Below, piece by piece: positions 1 through 23,342 of a stretch of 30,068 nt of DNA. The translations under genes and the position numbers were made by a program. Position 1 is the first letter of the stretch. The number at the start of each line of letters is the position of its first letter. This DNA comes from a virus: IMG/VR virus record IMGVR_UViG_3300021964_009396, positions 1 through 30,068 of that record; one strand, given 5' to 3'. The notes below the pieces were generated by a model. The model saw only the letters and a program-made list of their open reading frames with translations, ran no database searches and had not been told where the DNA came from.

Positions 1-195
1 AACACCGTTACTGCTCATCCAAGCATCAGTGAATATCCCGCCATAATAAGGAAAGGTATGACCTAAAGAAACGTGGAAGGTGCCATCATCGACCCCCTCC
101 ATTACTTTGGTCATACCAGCTGGACTTAGCCAATCAGCATCCGCATAAGCGTTTATGCTGAATAAGGCTAATAATGTAAAGAGAACTTTTTTCAT
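1..195 (-). CDS. Secreted phage protein, partial (C-terminus beyond window start)
   Basis: The frame is open from the ATG at 195 down to base 1, so only the first 65 residues are present. It begins with a good signal peptide: MKK, then a hydrophobic stretch, then AYA before DADW (cleavage expected near residue 18). The mature part contains GHTFPYYGGIFTDAWMSSNG, a Gly/aromatic-rich pattern I associate with secreted or tail-associated beta-rich proteins of marine phages. Its ATG overlaps the TGA of the upstream minus-strand gene (ATGA), so the two are probably translationally coupled and share the promoter near 1208. The function is unknown. The reading frame and signal peptide are clear; the family assignment is only impressionistic. 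Confidence 0.75.
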   Translation of the reverse strand, partial: MKKVLFTLLALFSINAYADADWLSPAGMTKVMEGVDDGTFHVSLGHTFPYYGGIFTDAWMSSNGV

Positions 196-2976: not shown

Positions 2977-3812
2977 AGGCTATAATAGAATTTACTCACC
3001 CCAATACAGGTGAAGAGCATAGATTTTTTATAGAGTTATTTGATAACCCCTATGTTCGTCATGTTGTCGGGCTAGAGCGTAAATCAAAAAATTGGTCTTG
3101 TAGTCGTGTTAGGATACCTAGTGTGAAGAGGTACAGCAAAAAAACGGTTGATTGTTTGTGGAAGCAACTATTAGAACAATATAATTCTTTTTTGTCTATT
3201 TTTGATCTTCAAGATCAGTTTAATATACCTACAAATTTTGATCGCACTAACAAATACACAAATATTTTACATAGAGTTTTTACTGAATATGTCGAATATA
3301 AAACTTATAATAAAAAAAAGGTAAAAATAAGCAACCAAGCTATGCTTTATGCTGAGGAAATGAATGAGACAATACATGAATTAGAAAAATATATATCAAA
3401 CAAAACTAGAAAAAACTTTGAGTATGTTAATTGGATTGAGATACAGGCACAAACCAATCCTTCACTAATTTATAGATTTAGTGAAGAAGAAAAAAATAAT
3501 ATGGTTTCACAGGACTGTTCTGTTTATGGTGTTAAGCATATACTCGGCAAAGACTATATTATATCTTATTTAGATGAAGACAATCCAGATGAATGGGACA
3601 TACAAAATATGCACATAGGTTTTTGCGGTTTCTGTATTGATGCTAAAGGTGATCTAAGAAGGCAGTGGAAGGACAAAAAATTTGTAGAATATTTAAATCA
3701 AAATAAAGTAGGATATTATCCAATGGGTAATATGGCAGAAAAAGAGTTAAAAGAATTGTATAGTATAATGGAAGTCTGTTGGCCATTTGAGGTTAAGGTA
3801 AGGTATGAGTAA
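2973..3812 (+). CDS. Unknown protein X, distant paralogue of the protein at 7458-8534
   Basis: A 279-residue acidic/aromatic protein with no signal peptide, membrane segment or motif I can tie to an enzyme. ATGA overlap with the preceding gene. Several short patterns recur in the same order in the 358-residue protein at 7458: N-x-LH-x-x-F (TNILHRVF versus LNQLHHHF), A-x-YA followed by N-x-x-x-HEL (MNETIHELEK versus LNNLVHELQS), and a region with Y-x-L, a D-x-D/N pair and G-F-x-I (GFCGFCIDAK versus MSGEFNIWW). I infer a shared fold. Both flank the first radical SAM/SGNH genes, suggesting a common role in the pathway such as scaffold, carrier or substrate binding. Confidence 0.7.
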   Translation: MKAIIEFTHPNTGEEHRFFIELFDNPYVRHVVGLERKSKNWSCSRVRIPSVKRYSKKTVDCLWKQLLEQYNSFLSIFDLQDQFNIPTNFDRTNKYTNILHRVFTEYVEYKTYNKKKVKISNQAMLYAEEMNETIHELEKYISNKTRKNFEYVNWIEIQAQTNPSLIYRFSEEEKNNMVSQDCSVYGVKHILGKDYIISYLDEDNPDEWDIQNMHIGFCGFCIDAKGDLRRQWKDKKFVEYLNQNKVGYYPMGNMAEKELKELYSIMEVCWPFEVKVRYE

Positions 3813-4599
3813 ACTTTTTGTTTTAGGAGATTCATATGCTGCTCTACATGAAAACCACGTAGACAATACACTAATACCTGAGTCTACTCAATGGAGCTAT
3901 CTTCTTAGTCAAAAATTGAACATGGAGCTAGTTAATTATGGTGTAGGTGGTTCATCTGTAGAATACGCTATTAATAGATTTTATGAGAAAGTTTTACCTA
4001 ACATAAAAAAAGACGATGTGCTTATTTTTGTTAAGACTTTTTATCTGAGAAAATACTTAATAAAAGACAAACCTACATTCTCAATGCCTCCGATTGTAGA
4101 ATCACTTTATAACTCAGAAATAATTTCTTCCAAAGATTACGCTTTTTACATGAGATACTTTGCCGATATTGTGAGAACAGATGTTGAAGGATATCATTCT
4201 TTTAATTTTATAAATTCATTAGCATATTACGTTTATAAGTATGGTTTTAAGGTAGCGGTTGTCAATGCCTTCCCTACAACACCAGAAGAAAATAAGTTTG
4301 ATAATCCAAAAAACATTATAGTATCTAAAGGTTGTTTGTCTCATGTAACTAGATACGAATTTGTAGATTCTGAGATTTTTGATAAAAAAATTCCTGCAGA
4401 CATGATGGATCCTAGAAGAAACCACATGGATGTAAAGAATCATGCGATACTTGTAGATAAAATATATCATAGTATACAGAATGTAAATATTCCATTAGAC
4501 TTAGATATTGGTTTTGAGAAAAATTTATATACAGTAAAAGAACTATGTAAAAATGCACATAATAGAACCGAATGGAATAAAGCGAACCTAAAAAAATGA
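3805..4599 (+). CDS. SGNH/GDSL-type hydrolase-like protein
   Basis: A 264-residue protein. The N-terminus LFVLGDSYA carries the GDS motif with the nucleophile Ser at residue 10, followed by LVNYGVGGSSVEYAI (block II glycine, 46-51), DDVLIFVKTF as the block III region and, near the C-terminus, RRNHMDVKNHAILVDKIY with candidate catalytic His207 or His213 and Asp209. SGNH hydrolases remove or transfer acyl groups on sugars and lipids; in glycan clusters they often act as acetylesterases or acyltransferases. No signal peptide, so it probably acts in the cytoplasm. It sits directly before the first radical SAM gene with a 4-base overlap, supporting a shared pathway. Confidence 0.7.
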   Translation: MSKLFVLGDSYAALHENHVDNTLIPESTQWSYLLSQKLNMELVNYGVGGSSVEYAINRFYEKVLPNIKKDDVLIFVKTFYLRKYLIKDKPTFSMPPIVESLYNSEIISSKDYAFYMRYFADIVRTDVEGYHSFNFINSLAYYVYKYGFKVAVVNAFPTTPEENKFDNPKNIIVSKGCLSHVTRYEFVDSEIFDKKIPADMMDPRRNHMDVKNHAILVDKIYHSIQNVNIPLDLDIGFEKNLYTVKELCKNAHNRTEWNKANLKK

Positions 4600-6038
4600 G
4601 TAAATTTGAGACAGGAGGAACAAACAACCTCCAATACATGGATTCATTAGAAGAAAAAAGAAAGGCAATTAATTCAGTTAGCCCGTCTTTTTGTTCTGCT
4701 AAATGGTTACAAACTACATTGTATTTACAAACAGGATACAATCATTCTTGTCACCATCCTTCACCTCATAAAATACCAGAAGCAGAAGTAAAAGCAAATC
4801 CCGCTGCTCTACACAACAGCAAATTCAAAAAAGAGCAACGATCAAAAATGTTGAAGGGAGAGCGACCACAGGAGTGTAGTTATTGTTGGAATATTGAAGA
4901 CCTAGGTAAAGATTACTATTCAGACAGACAAACAAAGACTTCTGATTATTGGGCTTGGGATAGATTTGAAGAAATAGCAAACTCAGATCCCGATGCTGAT
5001 ATGTTTCCTTCTTACTTGGAAGTATCCTTTTCAAACAATTGTAACTTTGCCTGTGCTTACTGTTCGCCTGACGTAAGCTCTCAGTGGATGGCTGATATTA
5101 AAAAAAATGGCCCATATCCTGTTGAGTTTGGTTCACACGACCTAAATCATCTACGTGAAAGAGAACAATATCCATATGCACATGATGAATACAATCCTTA
5201 CGTAGAAGCATACAATAAATGGTTGCCCGAAGTTTTGCCTCACCTAAAAGTTTTTCGTTTTACAGGTGGCGAACCTACAATGAGTAAAGAGTTTTGGAAA
5301 ACACTTGACTATATTAGAGAAAACCCTCGTAAGGATTTAGAAATTAGTGTGAATACCAACATGGGTGTGAAACCTGAACTCATAGATAAACTTATAGAAT
5401 ATGGATCAGAGTTTGATACTACTTGTAAGGAGTTTGTTATCTTTACAAGCAATGAAAGTCATGGTGCTCAAGCAGAGTATGCCCGTGATGGTCTTGATTA
5501 TGACTATTGGATGAATAATCTGAAAAAAGTTTTAGACACCACCGAACTTAGAATTTGTATAATGACTACAATTAATATTTTGAGTTTGCCAAACTTTACA
5601 AAATTTTTGCAGGACATTATTGATTTAAGACAACAATACAACCGAGACGGTTATGCAAATAGAGTTATGGTGAGTTTTAATTATATGAGATTTCCACCTC
5701 ATTTGCAAGTTACCCTTTTAGATAAAGCTACAAGAGAAAAGTATGCAGATGAAATTGAAGAATATGCTATGAGATACCACAGAGATTTTAGTCCTACTAA
5801 AGAAGCTAGATTTTTGTTGGAAGAAATAGATCAAATAAAAAGATTCTGTGACTATATGAGAACTGACCAAACTTCAGGGCCAAAGTATAGGAATAACTTT
5901 GTACAATTCATAACAGCATATGATGAAAGAAGAAATAAAAACTTTACTAAGACTTTTCCGGAACTGTCTGACTTTTGGGAGATGTGTAAAGAAGAAGCAG
6001 AGGAGTTAAATTTGATACCGGTGAAACAAGTTGAGTGA
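4596..6038 (+). CDS. N-terminal twitch radical SAM enzyme A1
   Basis: A 480-residue radical SAM protein. The SAM/4Fe-4S motif CNFACAYC has Cys149, 153 and 156, followed by FRFTGGEP (GGEP at 224-227), the SAM-amino-group motif. Before the barrel is an auxiliary Cys domain: SFC (33), NHSCHHP (52) and ECSYCW (94, 97). This fits the twitch or half-SPASM domain known for a phage-rich family, here placed N-terminally. The auxiliary domain probably holds a second 4Fe-4S cluster that takes an electron or binds substrate. Closest relatives in the window are the genes at 6031 and 8537, which share the HHP/HKIP block. Start overlaps the SGNH stop (ATGA). Substrate unknown. Confidence 0.88.
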   Translation: MSKFETGGTNNLQYMDSLEEKRKAINSVSPSFCSAKWLQTTLYLQTGYNHSCHHPSPHKIPEAEVKANPAALHNSKFKKEQRSKMLKGERPQECSYCWNIEDLGKDYYSDRQTKTSDYWAWDRFEEIANSDPDADMFPSYLEVSFSNNCNFACAYCSPDVSSQWMADIKKNGPYPVEFGSHDLNHLREREQYPYAHDEYNPYVEAYNKWLPEVLPHLKVFRFTGGEPTMSKEFWKTLDYIRENPRKDLEISVNTNMGVKPELIDKLIEYGSEFDTTCKEFVIFTSNESHGAQAEYARDGLDYDYWMNNLKKVLDTTELRICIMTTINILSLPNFTKFLQDIIDLRQQYNRDGYANRVMVSFNYMRFPPHLQVTLLDKATREKYADEIEEYAMRYHRDFSPTKEARFLLEEIDQIKRFCDYMRTDQTSGPKYRNNFVQFITAYDERRNKNFTKTFPELSDFWEMCKEEAEELNLIPVKQVE

Positions 6039-7461
6039 TGAATTAATACAGTATAGAAAAAGAGTTTTAGATTCCAAGTCTCCTTCTTTTTGTGGTGCAA
6101 AGTGGTACAACGCTACTACTTGGTTGGGCAGTGGTACTACTGCTTCTTGCCATCATCCAACAGCGCACAAGATTCCTCTTGTTGAGTTGCGTGATGACTA
6201 TACTGCAATTCACAATACCAAACACAAGAAAGCTGCTCGTAAAATGATGCAAGAAGGCGAACGTCCTTTAGAATGCGAATACTGCTGGCGAATAGAAGAC
6301 ATGGGTAAAGATTCTGTATCTGACAGAGTTTTCAAATCTATTATTTACAGCGAAGAGGATTTACAAAAAGCACACGATACTAATTGGGAAGACAGTGTTA
6401 ATCTAAAAACATTTGAAATTGCTTTTGACAGAACTTGTAATCTTGCTTGCTCTTATTGCAATCCTTCTTTCTCTACTACTTGGGCAAAGGATATTAAAAA
6501 GTTTGGCCCGTATCAAAACTTGTTATCAGATGGTGCAGGAGCCTTTGAACAAGATGGTTCCTGGACTGAACCGTATCACCGAGACGAAGAAAATCCTTAC
6601 GTCACTGCTTTTTGGAAGTGGTGGGACAACGGATTGTCAGATAGTTTAGAAGAGCTACGTATCACAGGCGGTGAACCTCTTATGTCAGGTAACACGTGGA
6701 AACTTTTTGACTGGTTTGAGAAACAAAACAGTGAGATGCGTTTTGCAGTCAACAGCAACTTGATTGCTAAAGACGAGATCATTGACAAACTGATTGAAAA
6801 ATCGTATAATGTAAGAAACTTTGAATTATACACAAGTGCTGAATGTTTCGGTACCCATCAGGAATATCTGCGCGATGGATTCGATTGGGACATTTGGCAT
6901 AATAATATGACAAGGTTTGCTAAGGAAGGTAACTACAACAGCATAAACATTATGATGACCATTACAGGTCTTTCACTGTTTAGCACTACTGAATTTTTAG
7001 ATGAAGTCTATGAAATGAAAAAACATAGTAAGACTGGAAAGCATCCTGTTGTGAGTGTAAACATATTGAGATTTCCAAGTTTTCAAAACATACTTACACT
7101 ACCTAAAGAGATACGAGAACATTGTCGCCAAGATCTTCTATTGTGGTTTGAAGAAAATAAACACAAACCGAATTGGCTTGAATTTGAACTTGCGAGTATA
7201 GAACGCCTTTTAGAATATTTGGCTACTGATGAATCACCTCACAGAAAAGCTAGCAATAGAGATACATTGTGGCAGGATATGAAAGCATTCTACACACAAT
7301 ACGACCAAAGAAGAAATAAGAATATAAACGTATTTCCTAAAATATTTACTGATTGGTTTGGTACTATAAATAGTGGTTACAAAGAAAGCCAACTAAAATC
7401 TGGTGACAACACTATATTTTTAGATGATAATAGATTGATTGAGTTAAGAGATATCTTATGA
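6031..7461 (+). CDS. N-terminal twitch radical SAM enzyme A2
   Basis: A 476-residue paralogue of the preceding enzyme. Radical SAM motif CNLACSYC (Cys136, 140, 143), ITGGEPLMS as the GGEP motif, and auxiliary Cys at 21 (SFCGAKW), 40 (SCHHP) and 82/85 (ECEYCW). The start is a TTG at 6031 that overlaps the previous stop; the nearby ATG at 6038 is out of frame, so TTG is the best start. Base composition is a little less AT-rich at its 5' end than in the neighbours. The C-terminal tail DQRRNKNINVFPKIFTDW parallels DERRNKNFTKTFPELSDFW in A1, showing full-length homology. It likely acts on the same or a consecutive intermediate. Confidence 0.88.
   Translation: MSDELIQYRKRVLDSKSPSFCGAKWYNATTWLGSGTTASCHHPTAHKIPLVELRDDYTAIHNTKHKKAARKMMQEGERPLECEYCWRIEDMGKDSVSDRVFKSIIYSEEDLQKAHDTNWEDSVNLKTFEIAFDRTCNLACSYCNPSFSTTWAKDIKKFGPYQNLLSDGAGAFEQDGSWTEPYHRDEENPYVTAFWKWWDNGLSDSLEELRITGGEPLMSGNTWKLFDWFEKQNSEMRFAVNSNLIAKDEIIDKLIEKSYNVRNFELYTSAECFGTHQEYLRDGFDWDIWHNNMTRFAKEGNYNSINIMMTITGLSLFSTTEFLDEVYEMKKHSKTGKHPVVSVNILRFPSFQNILTLPKEIREHCRQDLLLWFEENKHKPNWLEFELASIERLLEYLATDESPHRKASNRDTLWQDMKAFYTQYDQRRNKNINVFPKIFTDWFGTINSGYKESQLKSGDNTIFLDDNRLIELRDIL
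7365..7372 (+). promoter_or_regulatory. Possible internal late promoter TATAAATA
   Basis: An exact octamer about 85 bases before the unknown gene at 7458, inside the end of the A2 radical SAM gene. Position is compatible with late re-initiation, but chance occurrence in AT-rich coding DNA is possible. Confidence 0.25.
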
Positions 7462-8534
7462 GTAAACATATTATATTGACATTACAGAATCCTTTAGATG
7501 AAACAGATACATTAGACATCAAATACAATGTTATGGACACCACTATAGGTAATCAGTGGTTTGACCATTGTGTTAGTAATGTAAAAAATGAACCTAGGAT
7601 AGAAAAAAACTTTTGTTGGTTAGGGTGGAGAGACCCTAACCGCGATGTTCCTTTTTTGGCTAAAAAATTAGACGAGTGTGTGGATACAATCAATGAGTTT
7701 GCTGAATCGTATACTCCTCCTGCACATTTAAAGTTTGCACCCAATGTATGGAAAGACTATCGTATTGAAAAGAATTGGGAAGACATCTCTAATGATGATG
7801 CACTTAACCAACTACATCATCATTTTGAATTGTTGATGGGACAGGTTTGGGATGTTGCTCCTTACATGAGAACAGCAAGTCCTAAGGCAGCATACGCTAT
7901 AAGGCAATTGAATAATCTTGTACATGAGTTACAGTCTAGACGGTTTGCTGACACCCACCCACAAACTGTCGGCATGACTGTTGTTAGTTATTTAAATCCT
8001 GTTAGAGAATTATTTGCAGATGAATATTATGATAGTTTCTCATTAAACAGAGACTTTGGTGATATATTCTTACACTATGCACAAACAGGAAAAACACCTA
8101 TTGAGGCTTTTGAGGATAATGATGATTATATCTTCAATAATAATATTAACGCCTTACGTTATATGTCGGGTGAATTTAATATTTGGTGGAGCGAGTCTTC
8201 TACAGAAGAAGAAATAACAAGTAGAAAAGAAGAGCTAAAAAAGTGGTTATTTGATCGAGATGTAATTTTGCAAGAACAAGATGAATTTTGTTATTATGTA
8301 GACCACAACGGCGACAAACAAGGAATAGGTTGGTTGACTGTTGCTAAGATTGAACATGATTTTCCTAGTGATGCAGATTTGAAAGCAGAAGTTGTAAATA
8401 AATTAAACATCTACAAGTTGGCTTGTTACGAAAATAATGAAAAGGTAAGCGAGGTTGTTTGGGATTACAAGTGGAGTGACCCTGACTACGTTGAAAATGA
8501 AATTGAATATTTAACTCCACTGTTTCCGAGGTAA
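7458..8534 (+). CDS. Unknown protein X', larger paralogue of the protein at 2973-3812
   Basis: A 358-residue soluble acidic protein, ATGA overlap with the previous gene. Recognisable blocks are LNQLHHHFELLMGQVWD, YAIRQLNNLVHELQ, FGDIFLHYAQTGKTPIEAFEDND and EFNIWWSES, plus a Gly/aromatic C-terminal segment GIGWLTVAKIEHD. I have a weak memory of similar hypothetical proteins in marine phages beside radical SAM genes. Order and spacing of the LH-x-x-F, HEL and D-N blocks match the 279-residue protein upstream, so both probably descend from one ancestor. It separates radical SAM A2 from A3. No catalytic motif is evident. Confidence 0.7.
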   Translation: MSKHIILTLQNPLDETDTLDIKYNVMDTTIGNQWFDHCVSNVKNEPRIEKNFCWLGWRDPNRDVPFLAKKLDECVDTINEFAESYTPPAHLKFAPNVWKDYRIEKNWEDISNDDALNQLHHHFELLMGQVWDVAPYMRTASPKAAYAIRQLNNLVHELQSRRFADTHPQTVGMTVVSYLNPVRELFADEYYDSFSLNRDFGDIFLHYAQTGKTPIEAFEDNDDYIFNNNINALRYMSGEFNIWWSESSTEEEITSRKEELKKWLFDRDVILQEQDEFCYYVDHNGDKQGIGWLTVAKIEHDFPSDADLKAEVVNKLNIYKLACYENNEKVSEVVWDYKWSDPDYVENEIEYLTPLFPR

Positions 8535-8536
8535 CT

Positions 8537-9931
8537 ATGCCACATTCGTATGACCTATTAGATGTTAAAAACATTACCAACAAACTAAATGAAGTTGGTC
8601 CCGGTTTTTGTATGGCAAAGTGGTATCATGTTAGTATGCACTTACATACAGGACAAAACCATAGCTGCTATCATCCTGCACCTCACAAAATACCATTAGA
8701 AGAGGCACAGAAGAATCCTAACGTACTACATAACAGTCCTTTTAAGAAATCAGTAAGGAAAGAAATGTTAGCAGGCGGCCGCCCTTCAGAGTGTACTTAT
8801 TGTTGGGACGTAGAAGACTTAGGCCCTGATTACATATCGGATAGAATGTTAAGATCCTCTGAACAATGGTCAGTTCCTTTAATTGAAGAAACATCAAAAC
8901 TGACAGGTGATGAAGATGTATATCCAAGATATTTAGAACTTAATTTTAGTAATCGTTGTCAGTTTAAATGCAGTTATTGTGCGCCAATGGCAAGCTCGAC
9001 CTGGGTAAATGAAACCGATAAGTATGGTGACTGGCCTTTAGAAAATGAAATTAATGTTAGACAATATCAGAATATATCTTTTCAAAACGAAGGCACAAAG
9101 CACGGTGAAGAAGACTGTAATCCTTATATTAAAGTTTTTTGGGACTGGTTCCCCGAGGCTTATCCTCACGTACACACATTACGTTTTACAGGCGGTGAAC
9201 CCTTACTAAGCCCTAACGTGTTTAAGGTACTCGATTATGTTGCCGAACATCCTAGACCCGAGCTTAGGTTTGCTGTGAATAGTAATATGTCAGTACCTAA
9301 AAGAAATATTGAGAGGTTTCTTACTGTCACTAACGACTTGGTTAAAAATGGTAAGATATCTGGTTACGGCGTCTTTACAAGTGTAGATACTTGGGGACCT
9401 CAAGCAGAATGGATTCGCAACGGACTAGATATTGAAAAATATGAAAGTAATTTACACTACTATCTACAAAATTCAGCAACACCTTATATTAGCTTTATGG
9501 TAACTTTTTGTTTATTAGCTATCCCACGCTTTACTGACTTTTTGGATAAGGTTTTAGAATTTAGAAAAATTTATAACGTAGATCAATCATATCAACGTAT
9601 TAGTTTTGATACCCCATACACTGTCGAGCCACCTCACTTAACAGCACGTATTGCAGACGATTGGTTTGTTGAAAGACTAGAGTATACTTGTGATTATTTG
9701 TTAGAACGGGTGGATGATAACGATATAAATGCTTTTTCTACAGCAGAATATGAAAAGTTAAGACGTGTACTTGATTGGGTTAAACGTAGTAGGTATGAAG
9801 GCGAAGAACTTGCAATGAATCGTAGAGACTTTGCTGCTTTTGTAGATGAACATGATCGTAGAAGAGATACTGACTTTCACGCTGCCTTCCCAGAACTAAA
9901 AGACTTTTATACAATGTGTAAGGAATCCTAA
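8537..9931 (+). CDS. N-terminal twitch radical SAM enzyme A3
   Basis: A 464-residue paralogue of A1 and A2. ATG follows GAGG five bases earlier. Radical SAM motif CQFKCSYC (Cys141, 145, 148), FTGGEPLLS, auxiliary Cys at 25 (GFCMAKW), 44 (SCYHP) and 86/89 (ECTYCW). HKIPLEE and FKKSVRKEMLAGGRPSEC align with A1 and A2. The C-terminus DEHDRRRDTDFHAAFPELKDF carries the same terminal block as the others. The gene ends in TAATG with the next radical SAM gene. Presence of three closely related copies suggests either sequential reactions on similar groups or specialised partners. Confidence 0.88.
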   Translation: MPHSYDLLDVKNITNKLNEVGPGFCMAKWYHVSMHLHTGQNHSCYHPAPHKIPLEEAQKNPNVLHNSPFKKSVRKEMLAGGRPSECTYCWDVEDLGPDYISDRMLRSSEQWSVPLIEETSKLTGDEDVYPRYLELNFSNRCQFKCSYCAPMASSTWVNETDKYGDWPLENEINVRQYQNISFQNEGTKHGEEDCNPYIKVFWDWFPEAYPHVHTLRFTGGEPLLSPNVFKVLDYVAEHPRPELRFAVNSNMSVPKRNIERFLTVTNDLVKNGKISGYGVFTSVDTWGPQAEWIRNGLDIEKYESNLHYYLQNSATPYISFMVTFCLLAIPRFTDFLDKVLEFRKIYNVDQSYQRISFDTPYTVEPPHLTARIADDWFVERLEYTCDYLLERVDDNDINAFSTAEYEKLRRVLDWVKRSRYEGEELAMNRRDFAAFVDEHDRRRDTDFHAAFPELKDFYTMCKES

Positions 9932-11232
9932 TGAAAGATAAGTGGAATAAGACCCTTGAAAAATATTCTGATGAAGTGCAAGAGTCTTTTTGTATTCTTC
10001 CCTTTGTACATACATTTTTAAATACAGAGGGGGATGTTTTTCCTTGTTGTATATCTTGGGATGCTGAAAGAGGCAATTTAGTAGGCTATGTGAAAGATGA
10101 GTCTTTAGAAGATCTTTTTAACTCACCTAAAATGAAACAATTGAGATTGGATTTCATAAACGGCAAAAGAAGGCCAGACGTATGTGTTCGCTGTTACAAT
10201 TCAGAAGACAATGGGTTTCCAGCAGGAAGACATGGTAATAACCATGACCTGCAACATATGATTGAAGATGTAATATCAGCAACACAAGAGGATGGTTACT
10301 TAGACCCAAAACTAAAAAGCTGGGATATTCGTTTCAGTAATTTGTGTAATTTAAAATGTAGATCATGTGGTGACATATACAGCACGACTTGGGCAAAAGA
10401 AGATGCTGACTTTGGTATCAACAGGGGACAACAAGAGTTTAAGGCGTATGAAGGTGAAGACCCATTAAAGAACCAGTATGATAACGTAGAGAAAATTTAT
10501 TTTGCAGGCGGCGAACCTCTCATTATGCCCGAGCATTACAATACCCTTACTCAAATCATAAAAAAAGGACGAGCAAAAAAAGTTAGATTGGTATACAACA
10601 CTAACATGACTAAATTAAATTACAACAATAATTATTTGGTCGATTATTGGAAAGAATTTAAACAAGTAACACTTGGTTTAAGTATTGATAACTTTGGTGA
10701 TAGAGCAAACTACATTAGACACGGATCTGTAAAATGGCATAAGATAGAAAATAATATTAAACAGTTGGCAGAGTATTCTAAACAACCGAACTCTAATATG
10801 GATTACTTTTTCTCTCCTACCGTTAGTATTTTAAACGCATATACTCTGACAGATTTACACAGGCATTTTTATGAAGATGGTATGATGACAGGAATAGATG
10901 ATTTGTTGTTCAACATATTGTATCACCCAGCAGAACTATCATTCAATATTCTACCGGATTATCTAAAACAAGAAATACAAGACAAAATAAAACTTCACAT
11001 TGAGTGGATAAAAGATAATGGGGGAACTAGTAGATCTATAGATCAGTTTAATAGTTTTTCTGACTGTTTGAATGAAAAGATTGATGATCCGGAAAAAAAT
11101 ATAAAACAGTTTATACGAAGAACAAAAGAACTTGATGCTAGAAGAAATGAAAGTTTCCCTGACACCTTTCCTGAGTATGCAGAATGGTGGAACACAATAA
11201 CAAAAAATACAATAGACGTGGTTAACTTATGA
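9931..11232 (+). CDS. N-terminal SPASM/twitch radical SAM enzyme B1
   Basis: A 433-residue protein of a second subgroup. The N-terminus is strikingly like a SPASM domain: SFCILPFVHTFLNTEGDVFPCC (Cys21, 39, 40), a GNLVGYVKDESLEDLFNSPKM block and CVRC (85, 88). SPASM domains normally lie after the barrel, so the architecture is swapped. The radical SAM motif is CNLKCRSC (139, 143, 146) and the GGEP motif is in YFAGGEPLIMP. The C-terminal DARRNESFPDTFPEYAEWW block is shared with the A enzymes. It probably performs radical chemistry on a sugar, peptide or cofactor; known SPASM/twitch enzymes modify peptides (sactipeptides) or oxidise aminocyclitols (BtrN). Substrate not determinable here. Confidence 0.88.
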   Translation: MKDKWNKTLEKYSDEVQESFCILPFVHTFLNTEGDVFPCCISWDAERGNLVGYVKDESLEDLFNSPKMKQLRLDFINGKRRPDVCVRCYNSEDNGFPAGRHGNNHDLQHMIEDVISATQEDGYLDPKLKSWDIRFSNLCNLKCRSCGDIYSTTWAKEDADFGINRGQQEFKAYEGEDPLKNQYDNVEKIYFAGGEPLIMPEHYNTLTQIIKKGRAKKVRLVYNTNMTKLNYNNNYLVDYWKEFKQVTLGLSIDNFGDRANYIRHGSVKWHKIENNIKQLAEYSKQPNSNMDYFFSPTVSILNAYTLTDLHRHFYEDGMMTGIDDLLFNILYHPAELSFNILPDYLKQEIQDKIKLHIEWIKDNGGTSRSIDQFNSFSDCLNEKIDDPEKNIKQFIRRTKELDARRNESFPDTFPEYAEWWNTITKNTIDVVNL

Positions 11233-12518
11233 GCAAAGAATTACCTAAAACAATTTGTCCTCATCCGTGGCAACATTTACATTCATGGCCTGACGGGAAA
11301 GCTATGCTTTGTTGTGTAGCACATGGCGGAGTCAAAGGAGGAGAGGTCGGGGATTTCTCAAAGAACTCCTATGTTGAGATAATGAACAGCGATAAGATGA
11401 AACAAATTCGTAGTGATTTTTTAGCGGGTAAAAAACCACCTGAATGCAAGGCTTGTTGGGAAGCTGAAGATCTAGGCAAGCAAAGTTTTAGAAGTAATAC
11501 TCCTATACATAAAGAAGTCAGACAGTTAATGGAAGAAACTGACGCTGACGGTACTATGAAAGAAACTAAAATGTTTTATATGGATTATCGTTTTAGCAAT
11601 CTTTGCAATTTAGGATGTCAAACGTGTGGTAGTCCTCTGAGTAGCACTATTGCAAATAATAGAGAAAATAATTCATATGAGACTGATTTTTTAAAAAGAA
11701 AAAAGGTTCTGTCTGAAAGAGGTACAGTTACGTCTTTTGTTTATGCCAGACCAAACTTTATGGAAGAAGATGTTTATCCTTATTTAGATGACTGCCGAGG
11801 ATTTTATTTTGCTGGTGGCGAACCTTTAATGCACCAAGAACATTTGGATATTCTAAATTACTTGAATGATAATAAACTATACGATAAAACTATCTCATAC
11901 AGCACAAACCTATCATTATTGAAATGGAAAGGAATAAATTTTTTAGATATATGGAAGAACTTTAACAATATTATGTTTTGGTGTAGTATAGATGGTCACG
12001 GCAAACAGTTAGAGTATATCCGAGAGTTTTCAAAACATGACAGAGTATTTAAGAACTTAGATACATTGTTGAAATTAAAAGAGTCTCCCAATCCTGACAA
12101 ACCGTTTCAAGGTCATCAGGTTCGTATATGTTATACTCACAGTTTGTATAACTGTTATTATGTCCGAGAGTTTGTAGACTTCTTGTATGAAAATGGATTC
12201 TTAGATCGACTAAGTGACATTGAATTGAACTATGCTTATGGCGATAGTAATTGTCCTTCGTCATTACCTAACTTCGCAAAAGAAGAATTGAAGGCCAAAC
12301 GAAAAGAAGATCGTGAGGCAGAATCAATGCAATATATATTTAAGAAGTTTCCTAAATTTAAGCAATACTATGACACAGTAGACACCTTACTTGATAGCAA
12401 AAGTAACAATTACAGTTTTGATTTACTATGTTCTAATAAGTTTGTTGCTGACAAAGATAAGATAAAAGAAGCACTCCCTTGGCTTGCAAGTGTTATTGAA
12501 AGGCATAGAATTATATGA
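11229..12518 (+). CDS. N-terminal SPASM/twitch radical SAM enzyme B2
   Basis: A 429-residue protein. N-terminal auxiliary domain TICPHPWQHLHSWPDGKAMLCC (Cys10, 28, 29) with CKAC at 73/76; radical SAM motif CNLGCQTC (126, 130, 133); GGEP within YFAGGEPLMHQEH. The PHPW pattern and following SWPDGK closely match the dG-x-x-x-CC turn of SPASM domains. ATGA overlap with B1. The C-terminus lacks the RRN/FPE block in clear form but has EDREAESMQYIFKKFPKFKQYYDT in a related position followed by a longer tail, a difference from its neighbours. It is probably a distinct step in the same pathway. Confidence 0.86.
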   Translation: MSKELPKTICPHPWQHLHSWPDGKAMLCCVAHGGVKGGEVGDFSKNSYVEIMNSDKMKQIRSDFLAGKKPPECKACWEAEDLGKQSFRSNTPIHKEVRQLMEETDADGTMKETKMFYMDYRFSNLCNLGCQTCGSPLSSTIANNRENNSYETDFLKRKKVLSERGTVTSFVYARPNFMEEDVYPYLDDCRGFYFAGGEPLMHQEHLDILNYLNDNKLYDKTISYSTNLSLLKWKGINFLDIWKNFNNIMFWCSIDGHGKQLEYIREFSKHDRVFKNLDTLLKLKESPNPDKPFQGHQVRICYTHSLYNCYYVREFVDFLYENGFLDRLSDIELNYAYGDSNCPSSLPNFAKEELKAKRKEDREAESMQYIFKKFPKFKQYYDTVDTLLDSKSNNYSFDLLCSNKFVADKDKIKEALPWLASVIERHRII

Positions 12519-13714
12519 CAAATTGTATTAATGTATATAAAGGATTACGTTACACCAACAGCGGTGAAGTTATGTTTTGCTGTAAGAGTGAAAACTGGCT
12601 AGACGATAAAGACGGTAATCGCTGTAAAATAGATACTCACACATTTGATGAAGCCTTAAACGGAAAACAGGCTACAGAGATACGTGACGCTTTAGAGAAA
12701 GGAATCAAACACAAAAACTGCCAAAAGTGCTGGGATGAAGAGGCTTCTGGTATTGCAAGTAAGCGTATGCTTGATAATGATAGAGCTCAAAGATACTGGG
12801 GTCTGGATTATCTGCGGGATACAACTGTGCAGGCAGAAATTGTTGAACTTAATTTAGGAACAGTTTGTAATCTAAAGTGTAGAATCTGTGGTCCTTGGTC
12901 AAGTAGTAAATGGGTGAAAGAACACTATGCAGTTTTAGCCAAAGGTGAACCTTTTGACAAATACATGGAAAGAATATATCAGTGGCAGGGAAACTGGGAA
13001 GAAGATAGTCCTGCATGGGAGAACATAGAAAACAATTTGCCTAATTTGAAACAAATTGACTTTTATGGAGGAGAACCTTTCCTTGTTGACAAGAACTGGG
13101 AAATTCTACAAAAAAGTGTAGACGAAGGTTATGCAAAAGATCAAATACTTCACTTTAATACAAATGCTACAACATACAAAGAAGAACATATAGAGACACT
13201 TAAAAAATTCAAAAGTGTTCTTATTAGTCTGTCTATAGACGATATTGGAGAAAGATTCGAGTTTCAAAGACATCCGGCAAAATGGGATGTGGTATCTGAA
13301 AACTTACAAAAATTTATCGAACTTAATAAATCTAATCCTCAAATAGATCTTTTGGTTTGTGTTACAGTTAATAATTTAAATGTATATTATATGACTGAGA
13401 TTATGCACTACTTTGAAAAACAAAAAGTACAATACTATGCAAACTATTTGCACTTTCCAGCATACTATAATATAAGAAATATGAAACAGGAATTGAAGTC
13501 AAAGGTTGCAGATAAATATGCTAGGACTAGGACAGGTTTGACCACGTACTCGCTTGAAAATTTAAAAAGAATTACCACTTACATGGAAAATCATATAAGC
13601 ACACAGGGTCCTTGGGAAGAATTTTTGAATATAACAAAAGCCAAAGATGATTACAGAAAAGAATCTTTTGCTGACACTTTCCCTGAGTGGTCAAAAATTA
13701 TAGAGGAAAACTAA
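12515..13714 (+). CDS. N-terminal SPASM/twitch radical SAM enzyme B3
   Basis: A 399-residue protein. Auxiliary Cys at 4 (TNCINVYKG), 22/23 (VMFCC) and 69/72 (NCQKCW); radical SAM motif CNLKCRIC (118, 122, 125); GGEP in DFYGGEPFLVD. The C-terminus KDDYRKESFADTFPEWSK is the family's terminal block. ATGA overlap upstream, TAATG overlap downstream with an oxygenase-like gene. The N-terminus is shorter than in B1/B2, beginning almost directly at the first auxiliary Cys, so the annotated start at 12515 is well constrained by the overlap. Confidence 0.86.
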   Translation: MTNCINVYKGLRYTNSGEVMFCCKSENWLDDKDGNRCKIDTHTFDEALNGKQATEIRDALEKGIKHKNCQKCWDEEASGIASKRMLDNDRAQRYWGLDYLRDTTVQAEIVELNLGTVCNLKCRICGPWSSSKWVKEHYAVLAKGEPFDKYMERIYQWQGNWEEDSPAWENIENNLPNLKQIDFYGGEPFLVDKNWEILQKSVDEGYAKDQILHFNTNATTYKEEHIETLKKFKSVLISLSIDDIGERFEFQRHPAKWDVVSENLQKFIELNKSNPQIDLLVCVTVNNLNVYYMTEIMHYFEKQKVQYYANYLHFPAYYNIRNMKQELKSKVADKYARTRTGLTTYSLENLKRITTYMENHISTQGPWEEFLNITKAKDDYRKESFADTFPEWSKIIEEN

Positions 13715-14334
13715 TGAATATTTCACAGCCGTTTAAAGGAGTTCCTTTGTGGGAATTTAGCGGTTTAGATATTCCCGATATAGATCCTTACAGTTACAAG
13801 ACAGTTTCTGCACAGGAAAGTAAACCTGTAATGTCAGATGAAATGTACAAAAAGAGAACTGTAATTGAATATTCCGATTTGAAAGATTGTGAAAATTATG
13901 CTAAGGTTCAGACGCAGATCGAAAAAGTAATTACTGCCATACAAAAACAATCTACTGAAATGATTTATATTGAAGATGGTGATTATAAAACTTTACTGCT
14001 TATGATAAACGCATGGAATATGCGTCACTATAAAAATACTGAGTTTGTTATAGACAAAAAGGGATTCAACATGGGTTATCATTTAGATAACCGGAATATA
14101 AAGTGTAATTTATTTTTAAACTTAAAAGATAATATATCTTCTACTGAGTTTATGATATTGAATCGACCTCTTCCTTGGACACATGAATCATTTGTATGTG
14201 ACAAAAAAGAATGGAAAGGTCCTTCTCAAAAAGGCTCAGGATATTTTTATTTCAATGAAGATAGACTTTGGCACAAAATTGAAGTAGAAGATGATGAGAG
14301 ATTAATCGCAATGATGGGAGTGACGATGGAATGA
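13714..14334 (+). CDS. Double-stranded beta-helix protein, possible 2-oxoglutarate/Fe(II) oxygenase
   Basis: I choose ATG 13714, which overlaps the previous stop and has GAGG nine bases upstream; an upstream in-frame ATG at 13687 would intrude into the radical SAM gene. The 206-residue product shows a jelly-roll pattern: YHLDNRNIKCNLFLNLKDN with His123-x-Asp125, FYFNEDRLWHKIEVEDDERLIAM with His187 and Arg196. HxD...H...R spacing is the iron and 2-oxoglutarate binding signature. If active it would hydroxylate the product of the cluster. A cupin-type metal protein without oxygenase activity is the main alternative. Confidence 0.55.
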   Translation: MNISQPFKGVPLWEFSGLDIPDIDPYSYKTVSAQESKPVMSDEMYKKRTVIEYSDLKDCENYAKVQTQIEKVITAIQKQSTEMIYIEDGDYKTLLLMINAWNMRHYKNTEFVIDKKGFNMGYHLDNRNIKCNLFLNLKDNISSTEFMILNRPLPWTHESFVCDKKEWKGPSQKGSGYFYFNEDRLWHKIEVEDDERLIAMMGVTME

Positions 14335-14990
14335 ATATTGTTATTGTTGGACCGGGTAGCGACCCAAAAAGATTTGGTACCTATTTTGTAAATAAAGCCG
14401 AAGAACAAGAACACAATGTAATAAAGTTTTCTTATAGATTAAATACAGAGTCTCCGGAAGAAATAGGTGACAGATTTGAAAGCGTTATTGAACCGCTTGA
14501 ACAAATAGACTTATTGTTGTATAATTCTATAGGAGGATTTTATCCGGGAGAGCCTTCTAATTACACTTCAACCCACGATGTAAAATTTTCAGATTGGCAA
14601 ACAGGAATACTTATCAATGCTGCATTGCCTCATATGTTTTCTGTAAAGTGTCTGAAAAAGATGAATGATAGGTCGGGTATTGTGTTTTTAACATCTTCTG
14701 CATCATACTTAATTAACAGAGATAATTTTATACAAATGGCTGGTTACTTTGGTACTAAGGGTGCTATGAATCAGCTGATGAGGGCTCTTGCAGAATACAA
14801 TGATAAAAATGCTACAGTTTGTTGTATGGCACCACACATACCATACGATCAACCTGATATGGCAGAGAAAATTATGGATAAATTGACCAAATATATTTTG
14901 AGAATTCATAAAGACGATACTGGAAAAATTCTACAGTGTTATCCGCCAGACGGCAATGTATTTTATCACACAGGAGGAGTAAATCCGTGA
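14331..14990 (+). CDS. Short-chain dehydrogenase/reductase (SDR)-like oxidoreductase
   Basis: A 219-residue Rossmann protein starting with MNIVIVGPGSDPKRFGTYFV (glycine-rich dinucleotide loop 7-16), LLLYNSIGGFYPGE in the NNAG position, VFLTSSASYLI with Ser122/123, and YFGTKGAMNQL with Tyr139 and Lys143 as the catalytic YxxxK pair. It would oxidise or reduce a hydroxyl or keto group using NAD(P). ATGA overlap with the oxygenase-like gene. The glycine loop deviates from the classical TGxxxGxG, so cofactor binding is inferred. Another SDR lies at 24383. Confidence 0.72.
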   Translation: MNIVIVGPGSDPKRFGTYFVNKAEEQEHNVIKFSYRLNTESPEEIGDRFESVIEPLEQIDLLLYNSIGGFYPGEPSNYTSTHDVKFSDWQTGILINAALPHMFSVKCLKKMNDRSGIVFLTSSASYLINRDNFIQMAGYFGTKGAMNQLMRALAEYNDKNATVCCMAPHIPYDQPDMAEKIMDKLTKYILRIHKDDTGKILQCYPPDGNVFYHTGGVNP

Positions 14991-15103
14991 ATAAAGAAAA
15001 ACAAGAAGAAACAGAGATTGAAGAAGAGGAATTAGAACTTGATCCGGAGATATTAGAAAAATTAGAAAAGTTAAAAGAAGCAGACCCCTTCATCTATGAC
15101 TAA
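14987..15103 (+). CDS. 38-residue very acidic peptide before a radical SAM gene
   Basis: GTG start at 14987 seven bases after AGGAGG-like GGAGGAGT (14972-14979), the strongest Shine-Dalgarno in the cluster. The reading frame overlaps the SDR stop by four bases and the next radical SAM gene by eight. The peptide is Glu/Lys-rich with the C-terminal segment LDPEILEKLEKLKEADPFIYD, predicted helix then a hydrophobic DPFIYD end. It has no Cys. A tiny gene placed immediately before a SPASM-type radical SAM gene could be a substrate peptide, a leader-like binding protein or a small subunit. None of these is shown by sequence; existence of the gene is supported by its RBS and overlaps. Confidence 0.65.
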   Translation: MNKEKQEETEIEEEELELDPEILEKLEKLKEADPFIYD

Positions 15104-16193
15104 AGAAGCTGACACCTTTTGTATTTTGCCTTGGGTGTCAGCTGTCTACGCACCTAATAAAATGAACTTGATTTGTTGTCGTGCATTTGAAGAGGTGACA
15201 GAATATACTTTGGATGCTGTTAATTCAAAGTCACATAAACATTTAAGAGAAACATTGGGTAAAGGTATTCAAGATCCAATATGTAAAAGATGTTGGTTTG
15301 ATGAAAAAGCCGGTATATCTAGTTATAGACAAGACTTTAATAATGTTTTTAAAAACATCATAACAACTGATGCTTACGATCCTCCTAAGCTTAGATTTTT
15401 AGAATACACACCCAACAATGTATGTAATCTTGCCTGTAGAATGTGTAACTCTTTGTACTCAACAAGAATATATGCTAGGGAAAAACAGCTAAAAGAAAAA
15501 ATATGGAGTAAAGATGCTCATTATACTGACTGGAGAGATTTAGACCTAACACACTTACAAGAGCTAAAATTAATGGGCGGCGAACCCATGTATTTAAAAG
15601 AACATTTAGAAATGTTAAAGTATTTAGATGACATAGGTGTCCTAAAAGATTTATGTCTCACTTTGATAACAAACTGCACACATTCTATGTCAGATGAATG
15701 GAAACGAGTATTAAATAAAATTAGAAAGTTACATTTGGTATTAAGTGTAGATGCTGTCGGTCCAGTAAACGATTATATCCGCCAATATTCTAATTGGAAG
15801 GAAGTTGATAAGAATGTCAACGAATTTATTCAATACAAAAAAGACCTACCAGTGGGTAAGGTACATATAACCTTTAACTGCACTGTTGGGTTATACAATG
15901 TTAATAAAACCAAAGAACTTGAATTATATTCAAACGACAAAAAAATTGACTGTTACTTCAATCCGTTGAAGTTCCCGGAGTATCAGTCATTGTTCTACAT
16001 AAGCGAAGAACATAAAAAAGTATTAATAGAAAATAAAGGTGTGACCGAAAAATTACATCATGTTCTATTAGAGCCTGAAAAAAATGTAGTGTCTAAACAA
16101 AACTTTGTAGAAATGACCGACAAGACAGATAAGTTTTATAATAAATATTTAAAAGACTATAACCAAGAGATATACGAGTTGTTCTATGATTAG
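15096..16193 (+). CDS. N-terminal SPASM/twitch radical SAM enzyme B4
   Basis: A 365-residue, smallest member of the array. N-terminal auxiliary domain TFCILPWVSAVYAPNKMNLICC (Cys9, 27, 28) with CKRC at 63/66; radical SAM motif CNLACRMC (110, 114, 117); GGEP in LMGGEPMYLKEH. The C-terminal block shared by the other members is replaced by MTDKTDKFYNKYLKDYNQEIYELF. It overlaps the acidic peptide gene upstream and the carbamoyltransferase downstream. It is the last radical SAM enzyme of the 17 kb block and is likely functionally paired with one of these neighbours. Confidence 0.86.
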   Translation: MTKEADTFCILPWVSAVYAPNKMNLICCRAFEEVTEYTLDAVNSKSHKHLRETLGKGIQDPICKRCWFDEKAGISSYRQDFNNVFKNIITTDAYDPPKLRFLEYTPNNVCNLACRMCNSLYSTRIYAREKQLKEKIWSKDAHYTDWRDLDLTHLQELKLMGGEPMYLKEHLEMLKYLDDIGVLKDLCLTLITNCTHSMSDEWKRVLNKIRKLHLVLSVDAVGPVNDYIRQYSNWKEVDKNVNEFIQYKKDLPVGKVHITFNCTVGLYNVNKTKELELYSNDKKIDCYFNPLKFPEYQSLFYISEEHKKVLIENKGVTEKLHHVLLEPEKNVVSKQNFVEMTDKTDKFYNKYLKDYNQEIYELFYD

Positions 16194-17625
16194 TTGGGGT
16201 GTTAGTGCAGGGTTCCATGATGCAGCGTTGACAGTTATTAGAGACGGTTGCATCGTCTTTGCCTCACATTCGGAAAGATATAGTAAAATTAAAAACGATA
16301 AAAATCTTTCACCCGGATTAGTAAGAGCAGCTTTAGAGTATGGACAACCTGATATAATATTTTGGTATGAGAATCCTTTACTCAAAGCAACCCGTAGAAT
16401 ATGGGCAGGGCAAAAGAATTGGTATAAAAATCCAAAAAAATATTTTACAGATGTAGGATACGATTTCAAATGTCCTATTGAATGGGGCAACCATCACAAG
16501 TCACATTGGGCTGCTGGGTACTATACAAGACCTAGTCACTTTGTTGACTGCGCCACACTTGTTGTTGACGCAATAGGGGAATGGACAACCACCTCAATAT
16601 GGAAAAATGAAAAAAAAGTTTGGTCGTCACGTTACCCAAAATCTTTAGGACTTTTTTACAGTGCCTTTACTGATAGGTTAGGCCTCAAGCCAAACGAAGA
16701 TGAATACATCCTCATGGGCATGGCTGCGTATGGTGACCCTAATAGATTCTTTGACGAAATAGAAAAACTGACACACGGCAAAAATTTACATAAAGGTGTA
16801 CGTTGGTGGAGACCTGAACTTACAAGCGAACAAGATAAGTTTGACATAGCGGCTGCTGTACAAAAAGTATTTGAATCATACTTACATGGCTTACTAAACA
16901 AGACGAAAGAACTCACAGGGCAGTCTAAACTTGTTTATATGGGCGGGTGTGCCTTGAACTGTCTTGCTAATAGACTGATACCACAATACTTCAAAGAACA
17001 TTGGATAATGCCTAACCCAGGTGATGCAGGATCATCACTTGGTGCTGTGCTTGCTGGAACTAAAGAACGTGTGAACTTTAGTACAGCTTATTTAGGACAT
17101 GAGATAAAAGGTGAATATCCGGTTGACAACCTACTACAAGAACTGTTACAATATGGGATAGTGGGAGTAGCAAATGGGCGAGCAGAGTTTGGTCCAAGAG
17201 CATTGGGCAATCGTAGCTTGTTAGCCGATCCACGTGGTGAAGAAATGAAAGATGCTGTAAACAAGATAAAACAGCGACAGGAGTTTAGACCGTTTGCTCC
17301 TGTTATAAGACAACATGATGTTGCTGACTTTTTTGAGGTTAGTAAGACTTTTCATTCACCTTATATGCAACAGGTTGTAAAGTGTAAACATAAACACTTG
17401 TTTCCTGCAATCGTACACAAAGATGAAACAAGTAGGGTACAAACAGTGACATACGCATCAAATCCGGGCCTATATGTATTATTAACACGCTGGTATGAAG
17501 AAACTGGGTGCCCTATGTTACTGAATACAAGTTTGAACATAAAAGGGCAACCTATTGTAAATACGTTGAATGACGCAAAGAAGTTTGAAGAATATTATGG
17601 AGTAAAAGTCTATGGATCTGAATGA
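16186..17625 (+). CDS. Carbamoyltransferase, NodU/CmcH/TobZ family
   Basis: A 479-residue protein with both family domains. The N-terminal Kae1-like ASKHA part has ISWGVSAGFHDAALTVIRDG (2-21), metal-binding NHHKSHWAAGYY (His103, 104, 107), VVDAIGEWTTTSIW, GLFYSAFT, LMGMAAYGDP, YMGGCALNC and PNPGDAGSSLGA. The C-terminal domain has GRAEFGPRALGNRSLLADPR, FRPFAPVI and LNTSLNIKGQPI. These enzymes use carbamoyl phosphate and ATP to carbamoylate a hydroxyl on sugars, antibiotics or Nod factors. Length is slightly below the roughly 550-600 residues of cellular members. ATG overlaps the preceding stop. It implies the pathway product carries an O-carbamoyl group. Confidence 0.93.
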   Translation: MISWGVSAGFHDAALTVIRDGCIVFASHSERYSKIKNDKNLSPGLVRAALEYGQPDIIFWYENPLLKATRRIWAGQKNWYKNPKKYFTDVGYDFKCPIEWGNHHKSHWAAGYYTRPSHFVDCATLVVDAIGEWTTTSIWKNEKKVWSSRYPKSLGLFYSAFTDRLGLKPNEDEYILMGMAAYGDPNRFFDEIEKLTHGKNLHKGVRWWRPELTSEQDKFDIAAAVQKVFESYLHGLLNKTKELTGQSKLVYMGGCALNCLANRLIPQYFKEHWIMPNPGDAGSSLGAVLAGTKERVNFSTAYLGHEIKGEYPVDNLLQELLQYGIVGVANGRAEFGPRALGNRSLLADPRGEEMKDAVNKIKQRQEFRPFAPVIRQHDVADFFEVSKTFHSPYMQQVVKCKHKHLFPAIVHKDETSRVQTVTYASNPGLYVLLTRWYEETGCPMLLNTSLNIKGQPIVNTLNDAKKFEEYYGVKVYGSE

Positions 17626-21201: not shown

Positions 21202-21278
21202 GCACCCTTAGCTCAATCGGATAGAGCAACGGCCTTCTAAGCCGTAGGTTGCAGGTTCGATTCCTGCAGGGTGTACCA
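21202..21278 (+). tRNA. tRNA-Arg (anticodon TCT)
   Basis: A full cloverleaf: acceptor GCACCCT (21202-21208) with AGGGTGT, D-arm AGCTCAATCGGATAGAGC, anticodon stem ACGGC/GCCGT with loop CTTCTAA (anticodon TCT, reads AGA/AGG), T-arm with TTCGATT loop, and encoded CCA (21276-21278). The first acceptor pair is G-U. AGA is used heavily by the surrounding phage genes, so the tRNA probably supports phage translation. Confidence 0.95.
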
Positions 21279-23256: not shown

Positions 23257-23257
23257 T
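23228..23257 (+). promoter_or_regulatory. Consensus sigma70 promoter for the tmRNA
   Basis: TTGACA (23228-23233), 18-base spacer, TATAAT (23252-23257): both hexamers are perfect. The -10 box covers the TAA stop of the adenylate ligase. Expected start near 23264, just before the acceptor piece of the tmRNA. It is the best host-type promoter in the window. Confidence 0.8.
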
Positions 23258-23264
23258 ATAAATA
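23257..23264 (+). promoter_or_regulatory. Late promoter TATAAATA overlapping the tmRNA start region
   Basis: TATAAATA shares its first base with the TATAAT box. If used, late transcription would start near 23276, which could cut into the acceptor-piece 5' helix, so it might instead serve the endolysin downstream. Confidence 0.45.
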
Positions 23265-23330: not shown

Positions 23331-23342
23331 ATAAAAGACAAG

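Follow-up and report, generated by a model that had tools for sequence, protein, structure and literature searches.

Why would a phage line up seven non-identical radical S-adenosylmethionine (SAM) enzymes one behind the other, and what could they make together? The question is raised by IMG/VR record IMGVR_UViG_3300021964_009396, a virus contig of 30,068 bases that was analysed over its whole length (the window) and in which 36 open reading frames (ORFs) were called. Seven radical SAM enzymes (rSAMs) follow one another on the plus strand at 4596–16193. The neighbouring genes point to a T4-like marine phage, gp32 being 57% identical to that of Prochlorococcus phage P-SSM2 and 56% to that of Pelagibacter phage HTVC008M. 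An earlier note on this DNA had proposed a multi-step radical pathway; it named no substrate, and the gene context points to glycans. Because related rSAM sets stand beside sugar-transfer genes in hundreds of aquatic phages known only from uncultured material and in predatory bacteria of the Bdellovibrio type, an unusual surface sugar is the operon's probable product. To the full form of this idea, that the array is a phage-encoded pathway tailoring a surface glycan, we give about even weight; substrate, reaction type and biological role are the parts that we infer.

The seven proteins belong to one family. Over nearly their full length they score 228–373 bits against NF033640 (N_Twi_rSAM; NCBIfam, twitch domain-containing radical SAM protein), which has a curated cut-off of 170 bits and is itself a sequence family only. 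In genome order they are A1 (4596–6038, 480 aa, 338 bits), A2 (6031–7461, 476 aa with the TTG start as listed, 286 bits), A3 (8537–9931, 464 aa, 303 bits), B1 (9931–11232, 433 aa, 373 bits), B2 (11229–12518, 429 aa, 291 bits), B3 (12515–13714, 399 aa, 312 bits) and B4 (15096–16193, 365 aa, 228 bits). All seven carry CxxxCxxC, GGEP and four upstream cysteines, just as the earlier note had described. In A1 the auxiliary cysteines are residues 33, 52, 94 and 97, the radical SAM cysteines 149, 153 and 156, and GGEP lies at 224; in B1 the cysteines are 21, 39–40, 85 and 88, then 139, 143 and 146. The auxiliary spacing is C-x18-C-x41-C-x2-C in the A type, whereas in the B type it starts with C-x17-CC and ends with CxxC. 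That these are radical SAM proteins is indicated by CxxxCxxC, by the GGE motif and by the AlphaFold model of A1, which is best matched by radical SAM structures. Within the window CxxxCxxC occurs in exactly eight of the 36 ORFs, namely the seven and a conventional rSAM at 24976–26061. Loss of the catalytic cysteines among homologues, which would have spoken against a working pathway, is not seen: all seven cysteines are kept in 240 of 240 non-redundant phage homologues (239 of 240 at one position). Compared with their closest orthologues, the rSAMs are under purifying selection (dN/dS about 0.05–0.2, with synonymous sites near saturation). Five of the seven (A1–A3, B1 and B3) also share a C-terminal block, although its motif, D-x-[RY]-R-x(3..9)-[F/I]P[E/K], is slightly looser than the RR-x(2)-F-x-FPE first noted. 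Cysteine-dependent epimerase chemistry was considered as a family-wide activity and rejected: no cysteine is conserved beyond the seven, so that an EpeE-like cysteine acting as hydrogen donor is not a trait of the family.

What sets these proteins apart is the position of the auxiliary domain. In all seven window proteins the four-cysteine domain lies N-terminal to CxxxCxxC, an arrangement kept in the phage homologues. Pfam SPASM matches residues 21–89 of B1 and 10–77 of B2, a compact domain upstream of the barrel. A profile of 26 B1-type proteins finds BtrN in the PDB (E 7.5e-6); its positions 6–79 align with BtrN 162–238, and the four BtrN twitch cysteines fall in register with the N-terminal cysteines of the profile. 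Since BtrN 162–238 is the C-terminal twitch of that chain and the aligned part of the B1 profile is the N-terminus, the twitch module sits on the opposite side of the barrel. The A group is assigned through the alignment of the four cysteine columns that it shares with the B group. The seven-cysteine SPASM motif CX9-15GX4CgapCX2CX5CX3CgapC (PMC6231123) is absent from the family, in which the conserved cysteines outside the radical motif number four. By its sequence, then, the auxiliary domain is a permuted BtrN-type four-cysteine twitch and not a full seven-cysteine SPASM, so that of the label "SPASM/twitch-like" given to it earlier the twitch half stands and the full SPASM does not. BtrN, with the same module and the four aligned cysteines on the C-terminal side of its barrel, is a dehydrogenase of a sugar-like amino-cyclitol; its auxiliary cluster has four cysteine ligands, and in the two-electron oxidation that it catalyses the cluster is the proposed electron acceptor (PMC9012708). 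The A1 model (pLDDT 90.2, pTM 0.89) matches SkfB (top), BlsE, NifB, viperin and EpeE in the PDB, none of them over the whole chain (TMq at most 0.33, for SkfB). Predicted viral structures do include whole-chain matches, to proteins of uncultured phages (TMq 0.75); for KVP40/phi-pp2 proteins TMq is 0.53.

Do the seven enzymes form a set, or did they merely accumulate? The seven proteins taken together are too divergent to yield one search pattern, and viral contigs were searched with two short A-type patterns, which gave 472 A-type relatives, of which 80 were kept. From viral and bacterial loci 293 non-redundant proteins were aligned; order statistics refer to 56 non-redundant IMG/VR loci, the viral records being metagenome fragments. 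Because loci entered the set through an A-type pattern, the presence of A is conditioned, but gene order and the presence of B are not. In the tree, A (4596, 6031, 8537) and B (9931, 11229, 12515, 15096) form separate clades, the A clade with support 1.0, which bears out the two subgroups proposed earlier. Several subfamilies occur essentially once per locus: A1 (22 leaves in 22 loci, support 0.999), A2 (47 in 47, 0.995), B1 (39 in 38, 0.96) and B3 (22 in 21, 0.85). Of the bacterial A-type sequences, 20 in all, 17 fall in the A3 clade. Judged from this tree, the rSAM subfamilies are old.

Gene order is equally regular. A2 directly follows an A1-type gene in 34 of 36 loci, compared with a mean of 8.5 and a maximum of 17 in 2000 shuffles; all A genes stand ahead of all B genes in 41 of 43 loci; and every one of 176 consecutive pairs shares a strand, with a median gap of −3. 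One might suppose that there is no shared pathway and that independently gained radical enzymes have piled up in a hypervariable region. This would suit the B members and accessory enzymes, which differ between phage loci, as well as the Campylobacter phages CP220 and CPt10, in which whole rSAM clusters are swapped (PMC2853527). Fixed order, a single strand and one copy per subfamily argue the other way, and we regard this already disfavoured explanation as improbable, at roughly one chance in ten. Independent gain and loss thus does not describe the A block, whose partners are fixed, while the B set is variable. The pathway has a constant front end (the A block) and a variable back end (the B set and the accessory enzymes). 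The multi-step pathway envisaged in the earlier note accordingly holds as a one-strand, fixed-order set of several enzymes with intact cysteines, but its B members and accessory enzymes vary.

The company that the arrays keep is what points to glycans. A glycosyltransferase (GT), UDP-sugar dehydrogenase or carbamoyltransferase gene is present in 49 of the 56 loci (the window's family 2 glycosyltransferase, GT2, being counted by hand). In 31 of the 56 loci the first A is preceded by a member of F0, in nine by a gene for a GT7 glycosyltransferase and in five by one for a UDP-sugar dehydrogenase; F0 consists of two families merged by single linkage through fusion proteins, and its counts include both. 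When split, F0 proves to be the GT-like F0b in most loci and the methyltransferase-like F0a in the window's group. A PDB profile search with F0b gave no credible match. Loci can also be picked without reference to rSAMs: of 80 for which F0b was the sole criterion, an N_Twi-like rSAM lies within 8 kb in 54, in most cases immediately downstream, and upstream there are putative tail-fibre (F4) and GT8-like (F2) genes in nearly all, F4 as a fibre and F2 as a GT being assigned by reading, without a profile match. Small ORFs adjoining the arrays include two RpiB-like and one nucleotidyltransferase-like. Just upstream of the rSAM block, three phage loci encode an FdxA-like ferredoxin (L027:4015-4350, L079:8979-9311, L080:3356-3688), plausibly an electron donor. 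Three contigs of jumbo-phage size (L048, L053 and L055; 424–524 kb) hold 4–21 N_Twi rSAMs each, with 21 in one 518-kb record.

In the window itself, the GT2 gene (1601–2377, +; PF00535 6.7e-6, above the cut-off) is followed by F0a (2374–2976, +), the methyltransferase-like protein found upstream of the A block in the window's phage group, a homologue of which stands immediately 5′ of rSAM A genes at many loci; its function is tentative because the Pfam match is weak (PF00891 0.039). Downstream of B4 comes an O-carbamoyltransferase of the NodU/TobZ family (16186–17625, +; PF16861 6.2e-53, PF02543 7.6e-36, phrog_1601 2.5e-98), which is 32% identical to that of rSAM loci in Bacteriovoracia.

Bacterial relatives lead in the same direction. 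One scan of genome contigs turned up 18 loci with A-type relatives, the titles of nearly all of them naming Bdellovibrionota, and 64 of 192 Bdellovibrionota genomes have an NF033640 match over the cut-off. Genome G051 has 33 matches at E<=0.001, 13 of them over the cut-off within 745–775 kb of contig C1 (L145–L146, 738–778 kb). This array of 13 in 30 kb exceeds any single phage block seen; its neighbours include 2-oxoglutarate (2OG)-type oxygenases and amidinotransferase-like and aminotransferase-like ORFs, and a near-identical island is present in G049. F0b adjoins an N_Twi rSAM in G051, G049, G060 and G053. In Bacteriovoracia, an A-type rSAM occurs with a GT, a TobZ-family carbamoyltransferase (2e-39 to TobZ) and a Wzm-type O-antigen exporter permease (3.5e-15).

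The same Bacteriovoracia rSAM loci additionally carry PqqD, S74-domain and pilin-like proteins, and this brings up the possibility that the rSAMs modify a protein, installing cyclophanes, thioethers, epimers or dehydrogenations on side chains of tail fibres or other adhesins in the manner of maturases of ribosomally synthesized and post-translationally modified peptides (RiPPs). PqqD adjoins one bacterial N_Twi rSAM subfamily, in five Bdellovibrionota genomes, some of these loci also encoding small S74-domain proteins, which keeps protein modification alive. Moreover, in many phage loci the rSAM block lies directly 3′ of putative tail-fibre/baseplate genes (F10-F4-F3), in another phage lineage an S74 (endosialidase-chaperone) protein is encoded upstream of the array, and the top PDB fold match of the A1 model, SkfB, is a RiPP maturase. 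Yet PqqD is found in none of 23 viral records, and a recurrent precursor peptide is lacking, the 34 small ORFs near rSAMs in the 56 loci including no family present in more than three. The window's array does not adjoin tail fibres, and the bacterial PqqD loci also hold carbamoyltransferase, GT and O-antigen exporter genes. The Gly-Tyr-Ser repeats of the putative fibre F4, a candidate tyrosine substrate, were rejected, as they occur in only 3 of 98 members. We consider protein modification unlikely, though it is the alternative to which we give most weight. In one group of loci (L270–L275, Bacteriovoracia) PqqD, a small S74-domain protein, an N_Twi rSAM, a TobZ-type carbamoyltransferase, an O-antigen-type ABC exporter and a pilin-like protein with fibre-like repeats stand together; this may be an adhesin glycosylation system.

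Two further products have to be weighed. The operon could make or tailor a small molecule or lipid, such as an acyl chain or an amino-cyclitol-like compound. The window does encode an acyl-CoA synthetase-like protein (21949–23256, +), sister arrays are adjoined by desaturase-like (by inspection), Asp/Asn-hydroxylase and GNAT genes, and an amidinotransferase occurs in the Campylobacter rSAM clusters and, by inspection, in a Bdellovibrionota array. Against this, glycosyltransferases are the most widely recurring company, carrier-protein or exporter genes were not noticed in the phage loci, and the window's acyl-CoA synthetase lies outside the array; a small-molecule or lipid product therefore seems rather improbable to us. 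Hypermodification of DNA or RNA, with the carbamoyltransferase acting on 5-hydroxymethylcytosine (5hmC), is more doubtful still. TobZ-like phage carbamoyltransferases are able to carbamoylate 5hmC (PMC8670742) and a QueC-like gene adjoins the KVP40 array, but DNA-modifying phage carbamoyltransferases travel with thymidylate-synthase homologues, while others travel with glycosyltransferases (PMC8670742). Thymidylate synthase was detected neither in the window nor in the four records closest to it, which are themselves fragments. We consider this last explanation very improbable.

If the product is indeed a surface glycan, the rSAMs would act step by step, in fixed order, on a sugar or on a glycan still being built. 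Each enzyme would cleave SAM at its radical cluster, the 5′-deoxyadenosyl radical would strip a sugar carbon of one hydrogen, and the fully ligated four-cysteine auxiliary cluster might accept the second electron, by analogy with what is proposed for BtrN. Such two-electron oxidations would yield keto- or dehydro-sugars, to be finished by a short-chain dehydrogenase/reductase (SDR), an oxygenase and the O-carbamoyltransferase, and glycosyltransferase steps would be part of the remaining pathway. The product would most likely be a modified lipopolysaccharide (LPS)/O-antigen-type glycan of the infected cell, which would change how phages adsorb and would block superinfection; alternatively, it could be a glycan on the virion's own fibres. 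We favour a surface glycan because GT, UDP-sugar dehydrogenase and carbamoyltransferase genes recur at arrays in independent lineages; because loci picked for F0b only so often carry an rSAM; because the Bacteriovoracia A-type rSAM adjoins a carbamoyltransferase, a GT and an O-antigen exporter permease; because cultured and Wolbachia phages (described below) have GT genes near, or fused to, twitch rSAMs; because the twitch is homologous to that of BtrN, which acts on a sugar-like amino-cyclitol; because the set has fixed order, one strand and one copy per subfamily; and because RpiB-like, nucleotidyltransferase-like and ferredoxin genes adjoin arrays.

Several points weigh against this interpretation. 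No family member has a known substrate, and in the literature searched we found no report of a glycan product for the N_Twi family. The GT assignment of F0b and F2 comes from motif reading with weak or no profile matches, and the F0 protein flanking the window's array is the methyltransferase-like one. Neither a tail fibre nor an O-antigen locus lies within the window's 30 kb. PqqD, beside one bacterial subfamily, belongs to a peptide-chaperone family, and a four-cysteine cluster alone is no proof of oxidation. Finally, the gathering of loci with the A-type pattern conditions the presence of A, and the viral records are fragmentary, coming from metagenomes, with hosts assigned by inference.

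How much of this was known? The earlier note called the system uncharacterised, which is right as to function, but phages with many rSAMs have been reported (PMC5332604, PMC7029224, PMC2853527). The T4-like contig TARA_ERS488813_N000010 has 12 rSAM genes (PMC5332604), and pelagimyophages carry rSAM cassettes within their host-recognition region, together with glycosyltransferases that the authors suggested to alter the host O-chain against co-infection (PMC7029224). These are uncultured marine T4-like phages with many rSAM genes, like the window, but domain order, subfamilies, partner genes and bacterial counterparts are not resolved in the passages concerned. Campylobacter phages CP220 and CPt10 have 11–12 rSAM genes (PMC2853527), including an exchangeable five-rSAM cluster that also holds an amidinotransferase and two nucleotide-sugar transferases. 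In the rSAMs of these phages the radical motif comes first, followed by the extra cysteines, and scores with the N_Twi profile reach at most 24.5 bits. In Wolbachia phage WO, rSAM and twitch are linked to glycosylation as a single GT–rSAM–twitch polypeptide, UC3 of the Undecim cluster (PMC9203015). The family profile places its barrel at 431–633 and its twitch at 713–771; unlike the window's enzymes, it is a single copy with the twitch in the conventional C-terminal position.

A tblastn search of isolated phages with A1 gave almost no matches, so the comparison with cultured phages is limited to KVP40-like Vibrio phages, which B4 also matches. Another match of B4, with only 21% identity, is in Vibrio phage QD01, which grows on the laboratory strain V. 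natriegens Vmax. N-terminal-twitch rSAMs occur three times in KVP40 and four times in K566 (127–189 bits to the family profile, with only two of the four in K566 passing the NF033640 cut-off), and are distant from those of the window (about 20–26% identity). In KVP40 one of them is one gene away from a GT1 gene. In K566 the four are accompanied by a WaaI-like LPS galactosyltransferase, and the lipid A enzyme PagP is annotated nearby. The literature searched yielded no mention of the NF033640 name together with phages, and a search that excluded most subscription journals found no paper on N-terminal twitch/SPASM enzymes. Phages with many rSAMs are thus already known; what seems to be unreported so far is an ordered set of permuted-twitch enzymes with counterparts in predatory bacteria. 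This analysis adds the BtrN-type module in its permuted position, the ordering of the subfamilies and a toolkit common to phages and predatory bacteria.

The remaining genes of the run fit around the rSAMs. Between F0a and A1 lie a protein without a family match (2973–3812, +) and a putative SGNH/GDSL-type hydrolase (3805–4599, +), the latter recognized by inspection from a GDSY motif near its N-terminus, without a Pfam match. Between A2 and A3 lies the conserved partner protein F13 (7458–8534, +; model pLDDT 89.9), with homologues in phage arrays and in Bdellovibrionota, where some adjoin an N_Twi rSAM; a fold search against the PDB gave no match at E<=0.001 and a PDB profile search no credible one. 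B3 is followed by a probable 2OG/Fe(II) oxygenase (13714–14334, +), whose H123-x-D125 ... H187 ... R196 pattern is invariant across nine family members. Pfam gave no match either for this protein (tested as 13717–14331) or for its L009 homologue, and its start is more probably 13714 than the also possible GTG at 13687. Next comes an SDR (14331–14990, +; PF00106 3.8e-9). The earlier wording that the rSAMs alternate with other tailoring enzymes is loose, because only F13 and the oxygenase–SDR pair interrupt the series. Neighbouring array genes overlap or abut throughout, with the sole exception of a 105-base gap before B4; the operon reaches at least the carbamoyltransferase, and the run ends in or after that gene.

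Elsewhere in the window, the eighth rSAM (24976–26061, +) has the conventional order, radical motif first, with a weak C-terminal SPASM. It has relatives (F22) at 10 array loci, and inspection of Bdellovibrionota arrays shows similar proteins (D0) repeatedly; it may therefore belong to the same pathway. At 1–1160 (−) two ORFs lie side by side, each with a start resembling a signal peptide, and one is packed with Asn/Thr repeats; both (F9, F11) are kept beside arrays in 14–15 loci, and the pair is possibly the curli-like region described for pelagimyophages. A tRNA-Arg (tct) gene (21202–21278, +) is followed by a PD-(D/E)XK nuclease-like ORF (21293–21952) and the acyl-CoA synthetase-like ORF. 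A permuted transfer-messenger RNA (tmRNA) gene (23238–23549, +; Rfam RF04321 match at 23269–23458, 106.5 bits; tag ANDDVYALAA) lies just upstream of, and partly overlaps, an ORF at 23464–24075. Two-piece tmRNA is typical of alphaproteobacteria and would fit a SAR11-type host.

To our knowledge, sugar-acting radical SAM enzymes come mainly from a handful of antibiotic pathways. We tentatively suggest, as a possibility short of probable, that a dedicated glycan-radicalising toolkit, so far unrecognised, is common to tailed phages and predatory Bdellovibrionota. It would consist of ordered permuted-twitch rSAMs, a carbamoyltransferase and glycosyltransferases, would build surface sugars that are C-H-functionalised and have no described counterpart, and would serve entities that must attach to bacterial prey. 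The permuted twitch arrangement offers material for testing how an auxiliary cluster works. If our interpretation is correct, it would account for the abundance of rSAM genes that has been remarked on since 2017 in marine T4-like phages, and would bring a family of new sugar-modifying enzymes within reach of experiment. Radical sugar chemistry would then be widespread in aquatic viruses, as the 472 A-type relatives indicate, and in predatory bacteria, where a third of the genomes (64 of 192) encode the family.

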